A stretch of 64,000 nt of DNA, taken from Haladaptatus halobius. GTDB taxonomy: Archaea; Halobacteriota; Halobacteria; Halobacteriales; Haladaptataceae. Position 1 is the first letter of the stretch; every line of letters starts with the position of its first letter. Below, in pieces: positions 40,144-53,367 of the stretch. Under the pieces are notes generated by a model. The model was not told the DNA's origin. It saw only the letters and a list, made by a program, of their open reading frames with translations, and searched no databases. The stretch is taken from the NCBI RefSeq assembly GCF_020618475.1, contig NZ_CP085339.1, positions 124,001-188,000 on the forward strand, in the 5' to 3' direction. The position numbers and the translations under genes were made by a program.

Positions 40144-41091
40144 TTAGCAAAAATAATCTTTAATAAGTTCCGGATGTTGTGAAATTCTTGATTTCATCTC
40201 CACACCATTCCAAACGTCAAGAAATTTCATATCTGGTAGGAAATCATCGCTTGCTAGTTTTGTTTCTAAATCTCCGGTCGTTTTTATCGTAGCGACAAGG
40301 AGTCCAGTACAACCATGGCTATTCGCATTCATCTTCATTCTATTAAGATCTCGAGCATTAATTCCACTTCCTTCGTTGTTGAACTTATCTTGAACCATTA
40401 TCTTCACTGTTCTTCTCCCGATATTTTGGTAGCAAAAGCCATCCTTTCCCTGATCTGCGCCCGTACCACCAGGAGAGATGTTACTGAATGAGTCATTTAA
40501 CCTCAACAATTGATAGACAAGTTCTTGGAAGTCGTCGCCTTCGGAATCAAGTTTGTTCCATTGAACAATATTACTGGTCAATTCTTCGATCTCATCCACT
40601 AATCGGTCACAACCCGTGGTCGAATAGACTTCTGATAACCGATTTATTGGCGCAACAGCGATTTTACCTGTAGATTCGTAGAGAGAGAGTTTCGCCTGGT
40701 CTGGAGTAAAGAAAATAACTTTCTCGGTGACTTTATCAACTTCGATGAATTTTTTGTTCTCAATAAGATCAATATTGTATGAGCAGCTCGAAGGATTAGG
40801 TAGTTCAATATTTCGTGCTAGTTCAAACCCTTCTGTCTGTTTCGATGAAGAAATTTTAACTGGAGTTTGTTGAGCAGTACAGATAATTTCGTTTGGCTTC
40901 ACTTTATGGTGCATTCCGCAATTATCACAGTAAAATCGTACTCTTTTTCTAATCCATGGCATTTCCTTACAATATGCCAATTCGTCATGAACTAGCGATG
41001 ATTTGTCAATAAAGTCGCCACTTATCCCTTTGACTAATGTTGGAACAAATGCTGCTTCTCCTATGATTTCTGATTTATTGATCTCAACCAT
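40144..41091 (-). CDS. Zinc-cluster + Mrr-like PD-(D/E)XK nuclease
   Basis: A 315-residue protein. A Cys/His cluster FYCDNCGMHHKVKPNEIIC (C55, C58, H61/H62, C71) lies in the N-terminal half. The C-terminal third shows the restriction-endonuclease fold: helix DDFQELVYQLLRL (E190), GADQGKDG (D213/D217), then VKIMVQDKFN (Q234-x-K236), as in Mrr-type catalytic domains. It overlaps the upstream 349-residue gene by eight bases, so the two are co-translated. AT-rich codons set both apart from their neighbours. Probably a defence nuclease; the fold is by eye and the partner unrecognised. Confidence 0.65.
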   Translation of the reverse strand: MVEINKSEIIGEAAFVPTLVKGISGDFIDKSSLVHDELAYCKEMPWIRKRVRFYCDNCGMHHKVKPNEIICTAQQTPVKISSSKQTEGFELARNIELPNPSSCSYNIDLIENKKFIEVDKVTEKVIFFTPDQAKLSLYESTGKIAVAPINRLSEVYSTTGCDRLVDEIEELTSNIVQWNKLDSEGDDFQELVYQLLRLNDSFSNISPGGTGADQGKDGFCYQNIGRRTVKIMVQDKFNNEGSGINARDLNRMKMNANSHGCTGLLVATIKTTGDLETKLASDDFLPDMKFLDVWNGVEMKSRISQHPELIKDYFC

Positions 41092-42133
41092 TTATATTCT
41101 TAATTATGTACTCGACAGTCTTCCTATGGTCTTCTGGAGTCAATTTCTTCTGATAGATTCGAAAAGCATTGTTAGCTGGCGAGAGTTGGAAGGTCACACG
41201 TCCAACCCCATCAATATCGAAAACCATGTTTTTGAAGTTGTGAGGACGATCCTCTGGATAAGCTTCGTCCTCACTAATTTCATCTTTACTGGTCCATTTT
41301 GATATCGACCGGCCAGTATGTTCAGCATGAGTTGCCTTCACGAAATCGCTTAGTTCCAAGAAATTTCTCACGTCGTCGTCAGTTATCGTCATTTCGTTCC
41401 CGGTAAACGACAGCTCATTATCGAATAGTTCTTCAATAGTCGATTTTACCGATGTTATATCGCTCTCAGACAGATCTCTCTCGCGAATTTCAGCAATTTC
41501 TTCATCAAGATGAATTCGGACAAAAGCTTTTCCTATGTCAGGAAACGTAATATTCCTACCCTCTCGTGGATGGTATTTGGTCTCTTCGGAGTTTTTTACC
41601 CAGAAGTCAAGATAGACATGGTCCGAATCCTCAACCTCTCCCAATCTCAATTTTGGGACAGCATCTAAAGACTTCCAAATATTGTTCCCTGTGGTCGAAA
41701 ATGCCTTTTGAAATTCTTCGATATCTGAATCAGAAAGGAAGTCCTCTAGCTCATCTCCATCCATCTGTTTTACTATCTTCAAATCAGACTCACCCCCGTC
41801 TGATTGAAGCGCATTTATTTCAAAAAGATGTAGATTTGTTTCCAGTGCACCATTATTCATTGCGGACTCGTAATAAGACAGTTCTCTGTAGCTGGTTTCA
41901 TCAAAAATACTTTTTCCAGCCTTGACAAATATTTGTTCCTTAAGTATAGACCAATTATCTGGCCAATCGTCCATCGCTCTCTTAATATTACGCTTTCCAG
42001 CCATTAAGAGATCATCTACGGTTTCGTCGGTGAACTCATCATACTCCTCCTCAATCTCATTAAACTGCTTTAGAGGTAATATATCTCGAAGATATTCTAC
42101 TTGCTCTGGTGCACTGAGTGAATCAAATACCAT
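41084..42133 (-). CDS. Unrecognised protein coupled to the Mrr-like nuclease
   Basis: A 349-residue acidic soluble protein, first gene of a two-gene AT-rich operon. Residues 1-60 are helical (SAPEQVEYLRDILPLKQFNEI); the middle (about 165-235) alternates strands (LRLGEVEDSDHVYLDFWVKN, GKAFVRIHLDEEIAEI); the C-terminus ends in a possible helical pack (NNAFRIYQKKLTPEDHRKTVEYII). No nuclease, ATPase or membrane motif found. By position it could be the sensor or regulator of the downstream nuclease. I do not recognise the family. Confidence 0.6.
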   Translation of the reverse strand: MVFDSLSAPEQVEYLRDILPLKQFNEIEEEYDEFTDETVDDLLMAGKRNIKRAMDDWPDNWSILKEQIFVKAGKSIFDETSYRELSYYESAMNNGALETNLHLFEINALQSDGGESDLKIVKQMDGDELEDFLSDSDIEEFQKAFSTTGNNIWKSLDAVPKLRLGEVEDSDHVYLDFWVKNSEETKYHPREGRNITFPDIGKAFVRIHLDEEIAEIRERDLSESDITSVKSTIEELFDNELSFTGNEMTITDDDVRNFLELSDFVKATHAEHTGRSISKWTSKDEISEDEAYPEDRPHNFKNMVFDIDGVGRVTFQLSPANNAFRIYQKKLTPEDHRKTVEYIIKNING

Positions 42134-42144
42134 AAGGAAGAAAG

Positions 42145-42774
42145 ATGATCGCAGACATATATATCTTTCTGAAATTCGGGACGACTATCAAATTGGTCTT
42201 CGGACTCCCGATTCCAGATCCCAAGGAGAATGACGATGGGGTTGTCGACAAGGTGATTTCGTTGTCGAGAGACCTGCACGAACTCGCCGAGCGCTATCAG
42301 GATGCGAAAGCTGATGTGTCTTCACCGGAGGAGATTCTCAAAAGGTATGAAGTGAATTCGCTGTCGTTCGCTGTCTATATCCAGAGTATTGGTTTGGGTG
42401 ACGAGGATGGTGAGGTGTCTCCTTCGCAGGATGGGACGACAGTTCGAGTGAACGTGCAGTCATCGGTGGAGTTTGTTTCTGAAGAGGCTGCGGCAGCGTT
42501 CACAACGCTAATTCGTAAGTTAGACGTGGAGTCAGTTGAGGAACTGGAGAGCCTTGAGCTTCCGACGAGTGCTGATGAGTTGGTGGCCGTCGCTGAAGAA
42601 TACGAAGAGGCGCAGTCGGTTGTTGAGTCGGCACCTGATGAAGCCCGTAAATTGGAGAAGAAGTTAAATCAGCAGGTGTACTCGCTGTACAGCCTGAATA
42701 CCGAGGCAAGGGATCTTGTGGATGAGCGCGTAGATAAGCCAGAGAACCCGCTTGAGGCGAAAGTACGGAAGTAA
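42145..42774 (+). pseudogene. C-terminal remnant of an Eco57I/PglX-like methylase-specificity protein
   Basis: A 209-residue frame. From about residue 27 (KENDDGVVDKVISLSRDLHELAERYQ) it resembles the tails of large haloarchaeal Eco57I-type proteins: a helical DELVAVAEEYEEAQSVVE segment and a closing LEKKLNQQVYSLYSLNTEARDLVDERV. The first 26 codons read like noise out of the junction with the AT-rich nuclease operon. No methylase motif remains. It looks like the stump of a restriction gene displaced by that operon. Confidence 0.5.
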
Positions 42775-42814: not shown

Positions 42815-43229
42815 TCAGCCCAGTACAAGATTCTCCAACGCAGGATATTGACCAAGGGTCTCAAATTCCCCAAACGCTTCCAAGTCGATCCAAACTAGCT
42901 GATCGTGTTCCCACGAAAGATCTTCATCACAAAGCTCCTCGGCCTCTGAACAAGGCATCTCGATCAAGATTGGATGCAAATGGAATCGCTCATTCACACT
43001 ACTTGGATACGACGCTCCAATTTCTTTGATCTCCACAATTCTCGGAGAAACAGATATAAGTTCCTCATCCAATTCTCGCTTTGCAGTCTCGCGAATCGAT
43101 CATCGCTCTCTCGCTTTCCTCCGATAAACTCCCAGTACTCATCCTCAGTTTGCCGAGCAAGCAAGTACCAGTAGCTATCATCTCTTTAGCGCGTATCACT
43201 AACTGCGCGACATTCACGATATCAGCCAT
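42815..43229 (-). pseudogene. Nudix hydrolase with two frameshifts
   Basis: Joining three frames restores one Nudix protein. Frame a is MADIVNVAQLVIRAKE; frame b is DDSYWYLLARQTEDEYWEF then IGGKRESDDRFA; frame c is ETAKRELDEELISVSPR to the end at NLVLG. The Nudix box GGKRESDDRFA-ETAKRELDEEL is complete across b and c. Single-base losses near 43190 and 43115 explain the breaks. The gene is dead as it stands. Confidence 0.75.
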
Positions 43230-44051
43230 TGCATAGATACTCCCAACCTCACGACTCTCGTGTTTAGCTTCGAGCTGCTCGATGAGTCGCTGATTGAACT
43301 CGTCCTTGTCAGCTCCATTGTGGGATCGTCGATGGCAGTTCGGACAAAGCGCAATCACTGATTCAGGATCATCAGGACCACCATCACTGAGTCGGTGCAC
43401 ATGGTGGACCTCCAACTAAGGGTCGCCGTTCGAAGTTTCGAATGGTGCAGGCTGATTACAACCTTGGCACGTTCCGTCTGCCCAAGCGAGCGCGTATTCT
43501 CTTACCTCGGATGCACGACGATGGGTTTCAGTGACAGACGTCGTGGTCGCTGGCTCAGAGCTGCTCGCTGCCTTTGCTCGCTCGTACAATTCTACCTCGT
43601 TGAGGCTTGTTTCCGTTCCAAATGGTCCATCCTCTCCCATCTCGTTGGAGACTGGTGCGAGGACAAATCGGATCCCACGTCGAAGGTTTTTGTTCGTATC
43701 TGGGAGTTGCTGTTCGAAGTGATCGACGTATTCGTACTGTCCAACGTATTCAACCATTCCCTTGCCGAGCATTTTGAAGAGATGCAGCTGGCGACCATCC
43801 GATTGGTGCTGAAGAATGGCTTTGTTCCCCTGATCATACGTCATGTCCCCCTCCCGGCCCTCACCCGTGTAGATTACTGTGCCATCATCTTTGAACTCAT
43901 CTTGGTAGCCATGATCTTCCCCGGATCCGCCCGTGAACAGGAAGACATAGGGTGAATTGCCACACGGTGAAATCCCATGCTGGCGACGACCGCCGAATTC
44001 ATCGTGAATTCCTTGGCGAGCGTATTGTTCGCCACTTTCGAATAGCGTCAT
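43230..44051 (-). pseudogene. SRA/YDG-like + HNH endonuclease with a nonsense codon
   Basis: The 5' part (211 codons, 44051-43416) has an N-terminal domain with RQGIHDEFGGRRQHGISPCG and YTGEGREGDMTYDQGNKAI, the signature of SRA-like modified-DNA readers, then the first Cys pair of an HNH finger (CQGCNQPAPF). TAG at 43416-43418 interrupts it; the same frame resumes as LEVHHVHRLSDGGPDDPES and ALCPNCHRRSH, the HNH core. One changed base (TAT/TAC to TAG) would repair it. In life it would have cut modified foreign DNA (McrA-like). Confidence 0.75.
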
Positions 44052-44253: not shown

Positions 44254-47200
44254 TTAGGTACCCTCGAAGGGACCGAAGAACGGTCGATCATCTCGCCACT
44301 GCTGGCCTCGTTCGATTATCTCAACCCATGGATGATCCGCGATTTTCTCAAGTTCTCGGACTATCACACCGCTTTGGAGCGACTCAACCACATCAGTCGC
44401 AGTCGCGAACAACCCTTCTCGTTCACAGAAGGCATCGATGATCTCCTGCTCGTTGGCGCTTTTTAGATGATCACAATACCATTCTATGAAATTGATATCG
44501 TGATCGTCTAGCACGGTCGAAATTAGTTCGACAAGATCTGTTTCCAACGGCTGTTCGGCGACATTGCGCAGGTACAGTTCATAAGTCAAAGCGTTCGCCA
44601 TGCTTTGGAATTCAGCATATGGTTCTTGCGCCGAGGGGAGTGAATCGTACTCCATCGCAACCCCAGTAATTGCTAAGAGTCCATACAGATCCTCAAGTAC
44701 TGACTGATCAACTTCGGAGAGATCTCCGGGAAGGACGAGATTGTCAAGGAAGTACGCGTCGAAGTGCATGTCGCGGATTGCACGATTGAAGATGGAGAAG
44801 TAGACAAACCAATTCACGAACTGGGTGTTCAAGAGTACAGCTAGCGCTGGGAGAGAAAGGTTAGCGTCGTCGGGCACAACGATATTCGTCACCGTCTCAA
44901 AGTTGTAGGTTTCAACTGGATCATAGACCGCCGCGATGAGTAGGTGATCATACGGATTTTTCTTATGTGCGAGGATATTCTGTGCCATTACCTTCGGCGT
45001 CTCTACCCGCTGCCTGGTCGCATTTGAGATATTATCCGCTTTGATATGATGTTCAGGCGCCCGGGTGAAGTACCGTTGTACTTGTTTCCCGTTATAGCCA
45101 ATGGGGGCAGAGTTATCGGTGATCCTATTGGTGGTACTTGCACCCCGACCGGCGTCAACACCTATCTCACCCATCGTTGGGAAATCAGCGGCGGCGAGCC
45201 CAGCAGCGACAGTCTGGTGCTTCGCCGAGAAACTAACCGGAAGGGTTCCAAGAGTTTCCGCGAATGAGCGGGACACCGCCGCTGTATCGTCCAGGTGGTA
45301 CGCACCATCGGGCAATTGGCCGCAGTCGTAGTGATCATTGGTTACTGTCTGCGAGAGGTGCACTGTCACCTGTTCGTGATCAACGTTCCTAAACGCCTTC
45401 CCGAGATCAACACCCCGGTATAGCTTATCGAGACAGAACGCACGGAAGTCTTCCCAATTTGAGTTGTAGGTACTTGGCTTTGGAACTATATAACTCAATT
45501 CGCCACCAGTGAGTTCCCAGCTACGCTCAAGAAACATTTTCGCAACTTCGCGACTTCCTTCGATCAGGGAGTATCGCTTCTCGAGGAGGGATTTTTCAAG
45601 TGAACCCGGAGAGCTGCCGTGAGGCGGATTTCCGATGACAACATCAAACATTTCACCACTCTCATTGGTTGGTGCGAAGGCCATCGGGAACTCGAAAATC
45701 CAGTGGAATGGGTCTAGGTCTTCGATGTCGGATGGGCTTATCGGCCGCTCTACGCTGATAGTTCCCTGGTCCTCCATCAGTTCGAATATTCTCGTTACGC
45801 TTTCGGCGTTGGCTTGACGGATATCCTGGTGGTATGCCGTTGTGGGCCAGTTTACTTGTTCGCGGAAACCTGCGTCGGAAACCTGGTGGCGCACATCATC
45901 GGTCATCGCCGAATCGAAATCGAGGTTGCACTTGATCCGCCCAGTCACGTCATCGATAATATCAGTGAACTCTTGGTACGAGCCAATGTCCTCTTCAACA
46001 ATAACGTCGCTCTGCTGGGCGAGAATATCGGTAAATTCTTTCTGGAGGATCTGTCGCTGAGTAGTGAGTTCCTCCAATAATTCGTCAGCAGTTTCTCCTG
46101 ATGCGGTCTGATATTCCAGGATATTTTCCCGATAGTCGTTGACCGCTTCTGGGTATTTCTTCTGCTCTCCGTCAGTCCACTCGAATTCAAATTGGACAAT
46201 GAGGGAGTCGTAGGCGGGTCGTACAATTCCGACGAGGCTGTTTCCTTGACGTATATTGAAGTCGATGTTCGGAAGCGTCTCAATTTCTGGCTCACCCTGA
46301 CTTAGGTCGACTGAGGTCGCACTAATCAGCCATAACCATAGCCGGAGCTTACAAACTTCAACCGCTCCATCAAGGAGATCAACGCCGTACAAAGACTTGC
46401 GAATAATCTCTCGACGGAGTTCATAGCGTGACTTCTCTGTCGTGGCTTGGTGGCGCCACGTCTCAAGAATTTCCCCGCATGCCATCAGAAATGCGCCACT
46501 CCCAGCGGCTGGATCAAGGACGGTTATATCAGTTAGCACCTCTTCAAGTTGGTTGCGTTCAACTGGAATCGACGAGTCGTCGGCGTATACTTCCTTGAAG
46601 AATTGATCCGCCGACGGGATTTGCTCTGGTGAAATATTGTGTTTATTGGTGAGTACAGCTCGAACGCGGTTCCATAGTGTTTCCCGTGTATTCTCGTAGG
46701 CGATGTAGTTAGGCGTGTAATAAGCCCCGACTTTCCTGTTCCCCTTAAGCATCTGCTCGCCGCTTGCAGAGACGTCCATTTCGTCAAGTTCCGCAAGTGA
46801 GAGGAGCTCATCGTCCGATAGCTCACTGACAGTGATAACGAATTTCTCGAAGATGTGGCCGAGAACAGCCGGTGAAAGTTTGTTTGGCGAATCTGCTTCC
46901 GTTTCGTCGGGCGGGGACTGCTCGACCAACCAGTTGTATTTATTCAACTCGTCAATCAGGGCCGACCAATTGTAAGCTGTGCCGTCCAGCTCTCGTTCCT
47001 GGAGTTCGTCCCCATCTTCTGTGGGGATTCGGTGGTTTCGGAATAATCCGCCGTTAAGGTAAGGATAGGCTATCGAAACAGTGTCGGTTACTTCATACTC
47101 TGTCCAGCCACTTGTGTTCAGATGGTCGAAGAACGTCTCCATGAGGAACGTGTAGAATTCGTCATCATCGAGTACGCTCTTAAATAATTCCCCGGGCGAC

Positions 47201-47778
47201 AGCTGGAGGCGGTTTCCAGCGTCGTCGATACCATGAATAATATCCTTTTCAACGAGGAAGTAACAAAAGATTAGCCGGTCGATTGTTCGTTGGGCAGCCA
47301 TGAGTCGTTCCTCATCGCTGATGTCGGTTTCCCCAGGTACCTCGAACGCTCGTGCAATATCAAGGCGGATATCCCATAGATTTCGGTAGAACTGGTCAAC
47401 GACATCCCGAATGTCGAAAAGTGTCTCCAAACCCTCGTCAATTCTATTGAGCTTGCTTTCCTTACTATCGCGGACGTCGGTACTGTGTCCAATCGATTGG
47501 TTGTAGATAAACCATTTATGTTCCCCGTATCGATTGTAGACGGCTACTCGCTCCGAATCCGGGTTCCAGAACCAGTAAAAGTCGAAGTTTCGGCCGAGAA
47601 AGCGAAGTTCGGAGACGACTCCCGCCTGGCGATCAGGAGCGACGGCTTCAAAGTATGCAAGACGAGTGTCAGGATCGAAGTCAAACTCGATTTCCTTCCC
47701 ATCAACGGTTGCCGAATCACTCCCTCTATGTGTGAAATACCCCCTATTTTCCAGGAAGTCCTGATTATACGTACCCAT
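44254..47778 (-). CDS. Eco57I-type DNA adenine methyltransferase, large R-M subunit
   Basis: A 1174-residue protein. SAM-binding motif I VLDPAAGSGAFLMACGEIL (about residue 420) and catalytic motif IV DVVIGNPPHGSSPG (about 717) identify a gamma-class N6-adenine methylase; motif IV is NPPH instead of the usual NPPY/F. A long N-terminal helical region and a C-terminal recognition-like region (about 800-1174) flank it. Motif X-like GAYYTPNYIAYENTRETLW precedes motif I. The gene lies 49 bases downstream of a PLD-helicase gene on the same strand, forming a two-gene modification/cleavage unit. Confidence 0.85.
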   Translation of the reverse strand: MGTYNQDFLENRGYFTHRGSDSATVDGKEIEFDFDPDTRLAYFEAVAPDRQAGVVSELRFLGRNFDFYWFWNPDSERVAVYNRYGEHKWFIYNQSIGHSTDVRDSKESKLNRIDEGLETLFDIRDVVDQFYRNLWDIRLDIARAFEVPGETDISDEERLMAAQRTIDRLIFCYFLVEKDIIHGIDDAGNRLQLSPGELFKSVLDDDEFYTFLMETFFDHLNTSGWTEYEVTDTVSIAYPYLNGGLFRNHRIPTEDGDELQERELDGTAYNWSALIDELNKYNWLVEQSPPDETEADSPNKLSPAVLGHIFEKFVITVSELSDDELLSLAELDEMDVSASGEQMLKGNRKVGAYYTPNYIAYENTRETLWNRVRAVLTNKHNISPEQIPSADQFFKEVYADDSSIPVERNQLEEVLTDITVLDPAAGSGAFLMACGEILETWRHQATTEKSRYELRREIIRKSLYGVDLLDGAVEVCKLRLWLWLISATSVDLSQGEPEIETLPNIDFNIRQGNSLVGIVRPAYDSLIVQFEFEWTDGEQKKYPEAVNDYRENILEYQTASGETADELLEELTTQRQILQKEFTDILAQQSDVIVEEDIGSYQEFTDIIDDVTGRIKCNLDFDSAMTDDVRHQVSDAGFREQVNWPTTAYHQDIRQANAESVTRIFELMEDQGTISVERPISPSDIEDLDPFHWIFEFPMAFAPTNESGEMFDVVIGNPPHGSSPGSLEKSLLEKRYSLIEGSREVAKMFLERSWELTGGELSYIVPKPSTYNSNWEDFRAFCLDKLYRGVDLGKAFRNVDHEQVTVHLSQTVTNDHYDCGQLPDGAYHLDDTAAVSRSFAETLGTLPVSFSAKHQTVAAGLAAADFPTMGEIGVDAGRGASTTNRITDNSAPIGYNGKQVQRYFTRAPEHHIKADNISNATRQRVETPKVMAQNILAHKKNPYDHLLIAAVYDPVETYNFETVTNIVVPDDANLSLPALAVLLNTQFVNWFVYFSIFNRAIRDMHFDAYFLDNLVLPGDLSEVDQSVLEDLYGLLAITGVAMEYDSLPSAQEPYAEFQSMANALTYELYLRNVAEQPLETDLVELISTVLDDHDINFIEWYCDHLKSANEQEIIDAFCEREGLFATATDVVESLQSGVIVRELEKIADHPWVEIIERGQQWRDDRPFFGPFEGT

Positions 47779-47827: not shown

Positions 47828-50800
47828 TTACTCCTCAATGTACTTCGCAATCGCAATTGGAGCGACGTTGACACCGTCATCACTTCCGTCACCAGCACTT
47901 TCAACGAGGGATTTGAGGCGTTGCCAACTTTCGCGTTGTGCCACACTCTCATCGATGTTCCGTACCATGGTTGGATAGTCAAGTATCGTCTCGCAAGTCG
48001 TCTTTACAGCATCTTCTTCTTCGGGTCGAAATGTGTTGTTCTCAAGCCCAGTCAGGACATCGGTTAATACGACCCGCATGTCTCCATCTGTAAGCCTATC
48101 GCGAGCGTCACGAACAAGTGCATGAATCTCTCCCGTTCGACCGAGATTTCCTTGCGTGGTTTGCTCACGTAACACCGCTGCTTCCCGCTCTTCGACGAGA
48201 TCTTCCAGCGCCGTCCAATCTGCATCAGTAAGTCCTCGAACACTGGACGAACCTGAAACACTCCTTTGAAATGAACTCCAAACGGCCGTCGTATTGCCTA
48301 TCTGGCCGATGACGCCAAGACCAGACGATTCTGCTTGTTGGAGCGTCGTATAGATCGGTTTTGAATTCGGAATCGGCACTCGGTCAATCAAAGAGGCGTC
48401 GATGTTGTGTTCCTCGATCGCTTGTTCCAGTGCGATATCGATTGGATCTCGTGCTGAACGTTCATCGTCGAGTGTTTCACTAGGATTGGCACTACTCAAC
48501 GATTGTTTGTATTCTTGCAAGTGTTCCAGATATTCTTCTTGCTCCTGAGATCGCATACTGTCGATTCGTTCCTCGTCCATCATCCAGACGACGAAGTCTA
48601 GACCAGCGATTTGGACGATATTCTCAAGGCGGGCGTCTAACGTATCATACAGTTCAAGTTCACGATCGATTGAGCCGGTGGGTGTGAAATTTCGTACGTA
48701 GATCTGTTTTGGATTCGTGATCCGAAGTGCACGTCCTAAACGCTGGATGAGTGCTGTCGGATTGTACGGCAAGTCGTAGTTGATAACGACATCCGCCCGC
48801 GGTAGGTTAACCCCCTCCGCAAGCAGTTCGGTTGTGATTGCCACATCGTATTCTCCTGATTGAAACGCATCGACGAAATTTTCTTTAGATTGGTTCGTTT
48901 GGCCATGGATCGCCCCAACATTGACGTCCGGTAGCTCCTCTTGTACGACCTCAGCGAGATACTCAACCGTCGCGACGAACTCCGAGAAGACTAGTATTGG
49001 CTGATCCTGGTCAACGGCGTCAGCTATGAGCCTGACGAACTGCTCAGCTTTCGTGTCGTTATTCCTGGGCACTGTTGTCGCATCACCCGCATAGCGTTCG
49101 ACGCGTTCCATCATTTCCCGTACCCGTTCAACGTCGGCACTCATCCGGCGTAGAATCTCTTCTCTTGTATCCTCCGTGACGGACTCAAACCCTTCGGTAA
49201 ATCGGTGAAGTCGATCCAGATCACCACCAAGGAGATGGTTGACGCGATCCCTCGATAGATCCTCAACGAGTTCCGCTGGTGTCTCTGCGGTAAGCGCCTG
49301 CCGGTTTCGGAGAGTGGCGTGATACAGTCGCGTCCGATCATAGAGGTTGCGCAGCCCCTCGTCAAATGCCACGATGCTACTCTCAAGTTGCTTGTAAAGC
49401 CGCCATTTGCGGAAGAAGATGACGTTTTTGTCGGGATCGTACGTATCTCCCCCAGCCAGCTTTGCAGATTCGTAGTTGAGGTCTTCGAGGAACGGAACAA
49501 TTTCATCGAAGATGTTGCGTCGGTATGAATGCGGATATGAGTAGGGAACCTCCTCGACTGCAGGCTCATAGTATGCCACATCCTCACCGCCGAGAGCCCG
49601 CAAATCATGTTCGTACTCGTTTGCAAGAATTCGCCACGTAAGTTTGAGCGAGAGTTCGTGTTCGATTTGCCGGATATCGTTCAACAGCGACCGATCAAAG
49701 TCCTCGTAATCGTCAAGCCCTTTGAATCGGGCTCGTGTCTCGATATAGTGCTGGTGTAGTTCGTGTTTCTCAAAGCGATTTTGCCTGGCGCCGTTTCGAA
49801 ACAGGTCTATTAACTGGAACAGATCATTCGGACTGAGGTTGATAGGGGTAGCAGAGAGCAACAATACCCGGGCTGCCGGATTTGATCGGATCACACGCTC
49901 GAGGTTGTTCCGGCGATTTGAATTATTGCGATAATTGTGTGCCTCGTCGACGATGATCAGGCGGTACTCCTCCGAGTACGATCGTTCATCAAACGTCGGG
50001 ACTGAGCCGTCGGCTTCAGATCGGTGTGTCTTCTGGAACTGACCCATACTAATGACATCAACCTCGTCCTGGATTTCGAATTCAGCGAGCGTATCGTTCC
50101 ATTCTTCGATCACCGTATTCGGAACGACAGCGAGAACGCGTCCTTCAGTGTCGGGGCCAACCCGTCTCGATCGAAGGTATGTCTTGGCGACTTGGCCGGC
50201 GACATATGTCTTTCCGGTTCCTACACTGTTGGCCAAGATATATCCTCCATATGTCTCTAACCGACTCATCACAATCCGATAGCTGAAATCTTGAAAATCG
50301 AGTAACTGTTCCTTGGAGGTACCCGGCGCGTCTTCGAGGAGATAGTCCTTATCGAGAACAGCGATGATTGCAGCGAAAAACGTCTTCGGAGAATAGTAGA
50401 TACTTCGACCCTCTTGGGCTTCATTAAGCGTTTCGAGGATGTCGAGATCAGGCGTCGCCTTCTCCCAAAGTTTGTCGAACCATGATCGGATCCGACGACG
50501 GCTCTCGAAGGTTGTTTGCACTGGCATCGACAATTCGATATTCCTTGATAATCCGCTGCTGGAGAAGTTTGCGCTACCATTCCAAGTATCGTCAGGATTT
50601 GGGCCATCGGTTAGATAAAAATTGTAAATCTTGGCGTGGAACCGTTCGTCTTCTACGACCCGAATCTCGAGGAATTCGTTCTCTAAGAGTTCTCTCAATA
50701 CATTGGCGGCGTCTGAATCATACATACCCAGACTCCCACGAAGGAGATCCTGAAGAATCTGTTTCGTATATCGGTCTGTCTGCTGGCCCATGACGACACG

Positions 50801-51082
50801 AATAGGCGCACAAGTGCCCCAGTTCATGTCGTCACAAGTTGAAAGTGAATTAGACTCTATTAGTGCCCGAAAGACATCGCTTGTTGCTTCAAACCCGGAG
50901 AAGAATACGAACCCAGACCCAATGTCCATCCGGAAAATCGGTTCCGAAAGTTCGCCAGTAGCAAATTGACAGTAACTCTTGATGACGTCCCGCATTGACC
51001 CGGACTGGTCTTCTGGAAGAAATCCAGAATTATTATCAATAATCTTGGAGTCGAGATCCGAAATCGGAATTCCATCAGGCAT
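47828..51082 (-). CDS. PLD-nuclease-SNF2-type helicase, restriction subunit
   Basis: A 1084-residue fusion. The N-terminal PLD-type domain has RFHAKIYNF and 17 residues later NGSANFSSSGLSRN (H149, K151, N168, S170), a single HKD-like half that would dimerise. The helicase core begins at ANSVGTGKTYVAG (K291), with VDEAHNYRN, LLLSATPINLS, GAIHGQTNQSK and LLAEGVNLPRADVVINYDLPYNP before QRLGRALR. A helical C-terminus (about 840-1084) follows. Paired with the adenine methylase downstream, it should translocate on and cut unmodified DNA. I do not match the pair to a named system with certainty. Confidence 0.85.
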   Translation of the reverse strand: MPDGIPISDLDSKIIDNNSGFLPEDQSGSMRDVIKSYCQFATGELSEPIFRMDIGSGFVFFSGFEATSDVFRALIESNSLSTCDDMNWGTCAPIRVVMGQQTDRYTKQILQDLLRGSLGMYDSDAANVLRELLENEFLEIRVVEDERFHAKIYNFYLTDGPNPDDTWNGSANFSSSGLSRNIELSMPVQTTFESRRRIRSWFDKLWEKATPDLDILETLNEAQEGRSIYYSPKTFFAAIIAVLDKDYLLEDAPGTSKEQLLDFQDFSYRIVMSRLETYGGYILANSVGTGKTYVAGQVAKTYLRSRRVGPDTEGRVLAVVPNTVIEEWNDTLAEFEIQDEVDVISMGQFQKTHRSEADGSVPTFDERSYSEEYRLIIVDEAHNYRNNSNRRNNLERVIRSNPAARVLLLSATPINLSPNDLFQLIDLFRNGARQNRFEKHELHQHYIETRARFKGLDDYEDFDRSLLNDIRQIEHELSLKLTWRILANEYEHDLRALGGEDVAYYEPAVEEVPYSYPHSYRRNIFDEIVPFLEDLNYESAKLAGGDTYDPDKNVIFFRKWRLYKQLESSIVAFDEGLRNLYDRTRLYHATLRNRQALTAETPAELVEDLSRDRVNHLLGGDLDRLHRFTEGFESVTEDTREEILRRMSADVERVREMMERVERYAGDATTVPRNNDTKAEQFVRLIADAVDQDQPILVFSEFVATVEYLAEVVQEELPDVNVGAIHGQTNQSKENFVDAFQSGEYDVAITTELLAEGVNLPRADVVINYDLPYNPTALIQRLGRALRITNPKQIYVRNFTPTGSIDRELELYDTLDARLENIVQIAGLDFVVWMMDEERIDSMRSQEQEEYLEHLQEYKQSLSSANPSETLDDERSARDPIDIALEQAIEEHNIDASLIDRVPIPNSKPIYTTLQQAESSGLGVIGQIGNTTAVWSSFQRSVSGSSSVRGLTDADWTALEDLVEEREAAVLREQTTQGNLGRTGEIHALVRDARDRLTDGDMRVVLTDVLTGLENNTFRPEEEDAVKTTCETILDYPTMVRNIDESVAQRESWQRLKSLVESAGDGSDDGVNVAPIAIAKYIEE

Positions 51083-51308: not shown

Positions 51309-52412
51309 TTAATGTTCACCTTTGGAATAGCGATCATGGATGGATTCAATGGTGTAGCTCCGAAGGCCTTTTTGCGCAATTTCAATAGACTCCGTGAAAA
51401 GTTCTCTTCCTAGTTGTCGCCGAGCCCCAAACGGCTGAAGATAGTCACCCTCAATTTCGATATTGAAATCCTTACACACTTTTTTGAATCGTATTCTTCC
51501 TCCCTTTTTCGAAAGAGCTGGTGGGATAATGTCGTACTTATGAAACAGAGACATAGTAGGATGCTCCGACCGGAGGTTACTAATTTCATCCTCGTCGTAA
51601 CTACGTTCTTGAAGCCCCTCCACGACTCTTTTGACCATTGACGGTGCATGATGAGAAGTGAACACTGGCCATTTACCCGATTCAGGTGATTGAATCTCTT
51701 TTAATGTTTCAATTGGTTCTTTTGCCTGGCGTGGAAGCGGAATACCTTCGTAATTCTGGCTTTGCCCAAGTACTTGGATAGTGTTTCTATCAAAGTCAAT
51801 GTCGTTCCATGTGATTCCTGTTCGACGATCATCAGAGGGATCTCTCAATATCTCTGCGGAACGGGCACCTGAAAAGGCAATAAGATAGACTAGAGCACGG
51901 TCTCGGTTAGCTGAAAGTTTTTTATCTGGGTTTGCGATGATAGCTCTCTTATCAACGGCTTCTAGGAGTCGCATACGCTTTTCTTCAGACCAAAATTGGC
52001 GTTCTTCCTCTTTGATTTCGTCTGGTAAACAATCTTGAACTTCTGGGTAGGTTGCGGGGTTAGTAGTGATTAAATCCTTATTCCTACACCAAGTTAAAAC
52101 AGCAGAAACAATATGGAAGTAGCTTTGTGCTGTCGAAGGGACGATCTCATCATCTTCGGTAAGTTGTGAGAGGTGAGTTGCATACTGTTTCAGAACTTTT
52201 CGATCTAGTTGATGAATAGAAGTAATACTATGTTCTATTAACCATGGCTTCCACCGATGATTGAGAAATGATTCCGCGTTAGAACGATAATTGCCGGAAG
52301 CTCCTTCCTTCGCTTTGTCCTCTAAATAACCTTCGATTGCAGCAGCAATGGAAGAGAAGTCTTCAATACCGGTTTGCTCGCTTATTTCATCTGTAAAACC
52401 TTTTTCTGTCAT
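51309..52412 (-). CDS. Tyrosine recombinase/integrase
   Basis: A 367-residue integrase. The N-terminal SAM-like domain is about 20-110 (YLEDKAKEGASGNYRSNAES); the catalytic domain has Arg I in FSGARSAEILRD (about 190), Arg II in QPFGARRQLGRELF (about 330; the usual His before it is replaced) and nucleophile Tyr in ESIHDRYSKGEH near the C-terminus. It lies at the right edge of the defence island, with an AT-rich 226-base gap to the helicase gene; it may have brought the island in. No att repeat or tRNA was identified. Confidence 0.85.
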   Translation of the reverse strand: MTEKGFTDEISEQTGIEDFSSIAAAIEGYLEDKAKEGASGNYRSNAESFLNHRWKPWLIEHSITSIHQLDRKVLKQYATHLSQLTEDDEIVPSTAQSYFHIVSAVLTWCRNKDLITTNPATYPEVQDCLPDEIKEEERQFWSEEKRMRLLEAVDKRAIIANPDKKLSANRDRALVYLIAFSGARSAEILRDPSDDRRTGITWNDIDFDRNTIQVLGQSQNYEGIPLPRQAKEPIETLKEIQSPESGKWPVFTSHHAPSMVKRVVEGLQERSYDEDEISNLRSEHPTMSLFHKYDIIPPALSKKGGRIRFKKVCKDFNIEIEGDYLQPFGARRQLGRELFTESIEIAQKGLRSYTIESIHDRYSKGEH

Positions 52413-52537: not shown

Positions 52538-52798
52538 TCAGCAATACAATTGTGTGGATGTACCGTCTAATAAACTACCAAGCTGCCATCCGAGATTCTG
52601 CCAGGTGAGTTCATCGAGAATATCGTCATATCCTTCTCCATCGATAGCGTCATTCCAGCCGACCTTGAACCGTCCTCGCCGCCGGTTCTTCTCAGGATCT
52701 TCAATACGGACATCCTCGTCATAGGCCAGGGGGATCGTAAGCCATCGGATCGCGTAGACGTGCTGTACCGATAAAAACTCACCACACAATAATACCAA
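52538..52798 (-). CDS. Small hypothetical protein
   Basis: Eighty-six residues. IRWLTIPLAYDEDVRIEDPEKNRRRGRFKVGWNDAIDGEGYDDILDELTWQNLGWQLGSLL has plausible haloarchaeal composition with a Trp-rich helical end; the first 15 residues are less typical. It starts three bases before a divergent small gene. Possibly the tail of a longer protein. Not recognised. Confidence 0.45.
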   Translation of the reverse strand: MVLLCGEFLSVQHVYAIRWLTIPLAYDEDVRIEDPEKNRRRGRFKVGWNDAIDGEGYDDILDELTWQNLGWQLGSLLDGTSTQLYC

Positions 52799-52804
52799 AC
52801 ATCA

Positions 52805-53053
52805 ATGAAAGATGTACCCCAACCTGCGAACGACCCCTACCAACTGGACGACGACGTACAGGTCTACGTGTCTGAGACCAATCCAGACAGCGTACACCAT
52901 GAGAAAGAAGGCACCATTACGGACGTCTTGCAGGACACTCTCGGAGACGAGACTGGGCGCGAACTGGACTCCTATAGCTACCGCATCGAAACCGATGGTG
53001 AGGAAATCGATGTCTGATTCCGGCATCGTGACTTGGTACCGGTATCAAAGTAG
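52805..53053 (+). CDS. Small SH3-barrel-like haloarchaeal protein with an internal TGA
   Basis: The open frame gives 70 residues (MKDVPQPANDPYQLDDDVQV to GEEIDV) and stops at TGA 53015-53017. The same frame continues FRHRDLVPVSK to TAG at 53053, which looks like the normal end of this small family (a final basic W/FRxRDL strand). The core QVYVSETNPDSVHHEKEGTITDVLQD to RIETDGE is a beta-barrel-like set of strands. The TGA is either a nonsense mutation or a natural early stop. Confidence 0.55.
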
Positions 53054-53367
53054 CTAATTACCGATACTCCATTGCAACGGGCGATAACGAACGCAAGCCA
53101 ACGTGGCCACAGATCCGAGATGCACTCGAAGTCAACGAGAATCGCCTTTGCAGTGCGTGGCTCATGGGACGTTTTGTGAACCCGACGAAGGAAATCGCCC
53201 AAGAGAGTGACGTCGATGGTGTCCTCGCATTCGAGAGCTTCGATGCTATGGACGAATTCGACTATAACGGACACTCTCCGGAGACGATCGAGGTCAGTGG
53301 CAGCACCCGAGAGCGACTTATAGACGCAATCATTGCTGGCAAGAGAAATTATCTAACGATTCAATGA
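53032..53367 (+). pseudogene. Unrecognised gene, 5'-truncated
   Basis: The frame is open from 53032 but has no ATG, GTG or TTG before ATG 53164, although the residues before it (NYRYSIATGDNERKPTWPQI, RDALEVNENRLCSAWLMGRF) look coding. The product ends ETIEVSGSTRERLIDAIIAGKRNYLTIQ. Either a start was lost or translation begins at 53164 (67 residues). Not recognised. It overlaps the end of the C69 peptidase gene by a few bases. Confidence 0.4.

Follow-up and report, generated by a model that had tools for sequence, protein, structure and literature searches.

A rare haloarchaeal gene pair combines an undescribed protein family with Mrr-type or FokI-like nuclease domains, probably for defence

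Within a stretch of 64,000 nucleotides from Haladaptatus halobius (hereafter the window), two adjoining genes, A and B, belong to what appears to be a rare unit of haloarchaea. In the reading preferred here, A recognises a trigger or licenses its partner and B cuts, with defence somewhat favoured as the purpose. Five further genomes carry the pair, the cutting domain being of a different sort in three of these, and this recurrence points to a rare, undescribed two-gene system that is probably antiviral. The initial annotation had been unable to match the pair to a named system, and searches of both genes against Pfam, NCBIfam and PADLOC lead to the same result: neither A nor B finds a match in PADLOC-DB 2.0 at E ≤ 1, and no named system fits.

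Both genes lie on the minus strand and begin with ATG. According to the ORF calls, which confirm the positions, lengths, strand and overlap first assigned to them, A occupies 42133-41084 (349 aa) and B 41091-40144 (315 aa), the end of A and the start of B sharing 8 bp (41084-41091). Their GC contents of 40.1% (A) and 38.3% (B) compare with a window average of 51%. The codons had been described as AT-rich and unlike those of all neighbours. The first part holds, with GC3 values of 0.38 for A and 0.34 for B against 0.47-0.64 for most other genes of the window; the second is overstated, since the integrase gene at 51309-52412 is as AT-rich as the pair (GC3 0.35). All six A+B pairs known from this work are AT-rich relative to their own locus. 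Within 42134-42180 on the minus strand, some 25-30 nt upstream of the ATG of A, the TATA-like sequence AGATATATATG is a possible archaeal promoter, compatible with a leaderless transcript. The ORF at 42145-42774, which starts 11 bp away from A in the opposite direction, was excluded from the unit because it stands beside none of the other pairs.

The case for a single unit comes from recurrence. A search with B across 295 genomes of the order returned two more B genes (L002/L004 and L003/L005), each directly preceded by an orthologue of A, the two overlaps measuring 17 and 23 bp. Both proteins are 32-40% identical to their counterparts in these two genomes, and because the genes have stayed linked at such distances, the pairing is not a matter of chance. 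A B profile run over 394 genomes of the class picked out the window genome and these two alone. More distant A genes are followed by a longer nuclease gene in three further genomes (L018, L019 and L021). The Mrr-type B (B1) is accompanied by A in all three genomes that carry it, the longer version (B2) likewise in all three, and no full-length B without A was found in the 394 genomes. A comes first in every pair, and the junctions of the five other pairs are overlaps of 23, 17 or 4 bp or a gap of 1 bp. The identities of A and B over the six pairs rise and fall together (Spearman 0.925; Mantel 1/720, a value reached by the true labelling alone), a congruence driven in part by the split into an Mrr and a FokI-like group. 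The best explanation of these sequence patterns is that A and B work together as a single functional unit. That the two make up a genuine two-gene unit is thus borne out by the tight A-first junctions and by the presence of A with every full-length B; as for the pair being absent elsewhere, an outcome named at the outset as one that would count against it, five other genomes were found to carry it. Halogeometricum limi was the sole find when 84,980 genomes were scanned with a single narrow pattern, so that bacterial carriers may have been missed.

Gene B (40144-41091, minus strand) joins an N-terminal zinc-cluster module to a C-terminal domain that is, on the Pfam score of an orthologue, an Mrr-type PD-(D/E)XK nuclease domain. 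The window copy has no match in Pfam, NCBIfam or PADLOC at E ≤ 1, and its orthologue P0006 matches Mrr_cat (PF04471) over residues 185-269 with 24.6 bits, above the gathering cut-off of 21 bits, in agreement with the Mrr-like nuclease proposed from the window alone. The cluster C55-x2-C58-x3-H62-x8-C71 (40879-40929, minus strand) is invariant in the alignment of three B orthologues and presumably binds zinc. The putative catalytic core (residues 186-236; 40384-40536, minus strand) comprises a DDFQE helix, the motif GADQGKDG with D213 and D217, and VQDK with Q234 and K236. These four residues are likewise invariant, so that most of the positions singled out in the initial annotation stand; E190, listed with them, does not, as position 190 reads E/E/K in the three orthologues. 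Position 189 reads Q/E/E, and in the window copy the place of the usual 'FE' glutamate in helix 1 of Mrr-type domains is taken by Q189. B is predicted to be an active nuclease. An AF2 model of B alone was unusable (pLDDT 33).

The unit is broader than A plus an Mrr nuclease, because in other genomes the partner of a related A is a FokI-like nuclease. Immediately after the distant A of L018, L019 and L021 comes B2, a protein of 454-477 aa, across a 4-bp overlap or a 1-bp gap. The B2 proteins of L019 and L021 match FokI_cleav_dom (PF09254) with E values of 1.8e-4 and 2.1e-4, below the curated Pfam cut-off, and all three keep PDG...V-E-[SA]-K, which aligns with the FokI active site PDG...V-D/E-x-K. 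Full-length B2 occurs in exactly these three of the 394 genomes; weaker class-wide matches to its profile are not B proteins, the seven that were read being TFB-like zinc ribbons. Different nuclease domains thus stand behind a similar N-terminus. The Cys cluster of B2 lies at the same N-terminal position as that of B, and the local alignment score of B1 with B2 over the first 80-odd residues is reached by none of 1000 shuffles, a result that holds when the cysteines are masked. By profile comparison the similarity is weak: hhalign aligns the two N-termini in the same register (E 0.0058) but with a probability of only 6%, and in a ranking against decoys just one of the three B2 proteins stood above them all, the remaining two taking seventh and forty-second place. 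Taken together, these comparisons make it likely, if short of proven, that the N-terminal modules of B1 and B2 share ancestry. A DUF7845 gene on the same strand immediately precedes A at L018 (4104-5723) and L021 (7606-9753), two of the three FokI-like loci; it may mark a shared insertion site or represent a third component.

Gene A (41084-42133, minus strand), the constant partner in every linked pair, belongs to an undescribed family. The window protein has no match in Pfam, NCBIfam or PADLOC at E ≤ 1, its profile finds none among all PDB chains at E ≤ 5, Argonautes included, and a comparison with PHROGs gave nothing below E 0.02. The orthologues in L004 and L005 are 37-40% identical to it, and their start codons agree with that of the window gene. 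The A profile recovered six more distant homologues of 400-458 aa in further haloarchaea of the 394-genome set, and a broader profile added none; an HMM match in L024 was rejected as a response regulator. The family is thus rare, being present in 9 of 394 genomes of the haloarchaeal class. An AF2 model of A with one relative was unusable (pLDDT 39), and a possible duplicated beta-beta-alpha unit was set aside as too weak to claim (score 15.8 against a shuffled maximum of 15.7).

The surroundings of the pair had been described as a defence island, which in the window applies to one side alone. On the right lie an HNH endonuclease gene (43065-44051, minus strand), an Eco57I-type methylase of 1174 aa (44254-47778, minus strand) and a PLD-SNF2 helicase of 1084 aa (47828-51082, minus strand). 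The HNH gene, which weakly matches type IV methyl-directed restriction enzymes, is probably a pseudogene, as its frame is broken by a stop codon shortly ahead of the LEVHHV motif. Methylase and helicase remotely resemble BREX, DISARM, Dpd and phospholipase-D anti-phage proteins, scoring far below the curated cut-offs, and are possibly an unnamed system of the restriction-modification (RM) type. The integrase gene follows 9 kb from the pair, with ordinary metabolism genes beyond it. Between the integrase and peptidase genes, a segment at about 52740-53321 recurs as many scattered DNA copies across the genus, in the manner of a mobile repeat. Comparison with nine genomes of the genus yields DNA matches for the left flank up to about 40063; among the matches listed, a list that ended at weak ones, none outside the window itself falls between about 40142 and 43000, and on this basis the pair looks strain-specific in the window genome. 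Elsewhere, McrB and McrC genes stand next to the L005 pair and are followed by a DUF1156-type methylase gene, and the neighbours of the L004 pair are TraC- and TraD-like genes and an integrase gene, with a generic methylase-like gene 3 kb away. RM, McrBC or conjugative-type surroundings are thus seen at three of the six pairs, the window pair included; no recognised defence gene was found among the flanking genes scanned at the other three (L018, L019 and L021), which tells against the defence reading.

Three A homologues (L020, 5661-6524; L022, 4900-6106; L023, 7715-9026) have no B nearby and stand beside a divergent TrmB-type gene, which in L022 and L023 is overlapped by a SocA_Panacea gene. 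A can therefore act without B and is not bound to a nuclease everywhere, and this is the main fact left unexplained by a simple reading of the pair as sensor plus nuclease. The same loci lend some colour to the idea of a toxin-antitoxin or addiction module, in which B would be a toxic nuclease restrained by A and the pair would stabilise its carrier element instead of fighting viruses: TrmB regulators accompany the solitary A genes, and the Panacea-domain genes of two of them are antitoxin-like. A tight junction with A in first place and a mobile, strain-specific carriage would suit such a module as well. However, with 349-458 aa A would be an unusually big antitoxin, its occurrence without a nuclease in three genomes is hard to reconcile with that role, and the nuclease domains are of restriction type, so that we regard an addiction module as unlikely.

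Known enzymes with FokI or Mrr cleavage domains rely on a separate recognition part, and A and B might accordingly be the halves of a split type II or type IV restriction enzyme, with A as the DNA-specificity subunit and B as the cleavage subunit acting at unmodified or, for type IV, modified sites. RM or McrBC neighbours at two loci and a conserved unit that lacks a methylase are in keeping with this. Type II RM would call for a cognate methylase in the unit, but none lies directly beside the pair across all loci, and that of the window (44254-47778) adjoins its own helicase and is no part of the A+B unit. What speaks against a specificity subunit is that Pfam and PDB searches reveal no recognisable target-recognition, SRA or winged-helix family in A. 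A split restriction enzyme in this strict sense seems quite improbable; it is, moreover, a special case of recognition by A and cutting by B and inseparable from it here.

Homing, transfer or replication of a carrier element as the task of the nuclease pair, in place of immunity, is suggested by the conjugation-type genes and integrase beside the L004 pair and by the integrase 9 kb away in the window, but is very unlikely, as the carriers vary between loci, RM or McrBC genes adjoin other pairs, and no copies were found in IMG/VR, PLSDB or INPHARED (viral contigs, plasmids and phages) with the queries tried.

We therefore return to a defence unit in which A recognises and B cuts. A most probably recognises a trigger, be it foreign or modified DNA or a signal of invasion, and would then license or position B, which would cut DNA. 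The N-terminal module of B, with its zinc cluster, might bind DNA or the partner and would carry the cutting domain, of Mrr type in the window B and its two orthologues and FokI-like in the three relatives. As the unit has no dedicated methylase, the selectivity of A or B, and not a modification partner, would have to protect self DNA, as in type IV restriction or other nuclease-effector defences. From these features we infer a recognition function for A and an antiviral role for the unit. In a wider and more tentative reading, which we consider plausible without favouring it, the family would represent an archaeal immune system, seen so far in haloarchaea alone, that combines a new recognition family with different cutting domains mounted on a common adaptor N-terminus.

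Beyond CRISPR and RM, the picture of archaeal immunity is sparse. When 7747 archaeal genomes were surveyed in 2026 on the basis of existing models, nearly a third showed no system other than these two (PMC12988326). PADLOC models detect neither gene of the present pair, leaving the unit invisible to existing models. Existing haloarchaeal virus-host models make it amenable to experiment.

Among known systems, Mrr-type restriction endonucleases (PF04471, type IV) share with B the C-terminal domain and its GxDG...QxK motifs, although the window copy itself scores below detection for Mrr_cat; unlike them, B adds an N-terminal zinc-cluster module and always has A as partner. The distant relatives in L019 and L021 match the cleavage domain of FokI (PF09254), which is absent from the window B, whereas the recognition domains of FokI are missing and the unit is without a methylase. 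The only PADLOC match among the orthologues is that of P0006 to PDC-S02, a single-gene phage-defence candidate; it is weak (E 0.013) and covers mostly the nuclease part (residues 147-270), and the unit described here comprises two genes. Panacea (SocA-like) toxin-antitoxin modules come into view through the two solitary A homologues that adjoin TrmB and SocA_Panacea genes, but no Panacea gene is seen near any A+B pair. Short Argonaute systems, as outlined in the accounts of PMC6299218 and PMC10810196, couple a recognition gene with nuclease-APAZ partners whose effector domains vary. No MID-PIWI protein is recognisable in A by sequence in PDB and Pfam searches, and the likeness is one of organisation alone: a two-gene operon in which a constant gene meets varied effectors. 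If the reading proposed here is true, the A+B unit would provide an archaeal example of the swap-the-effector logic of Argonaute systems.
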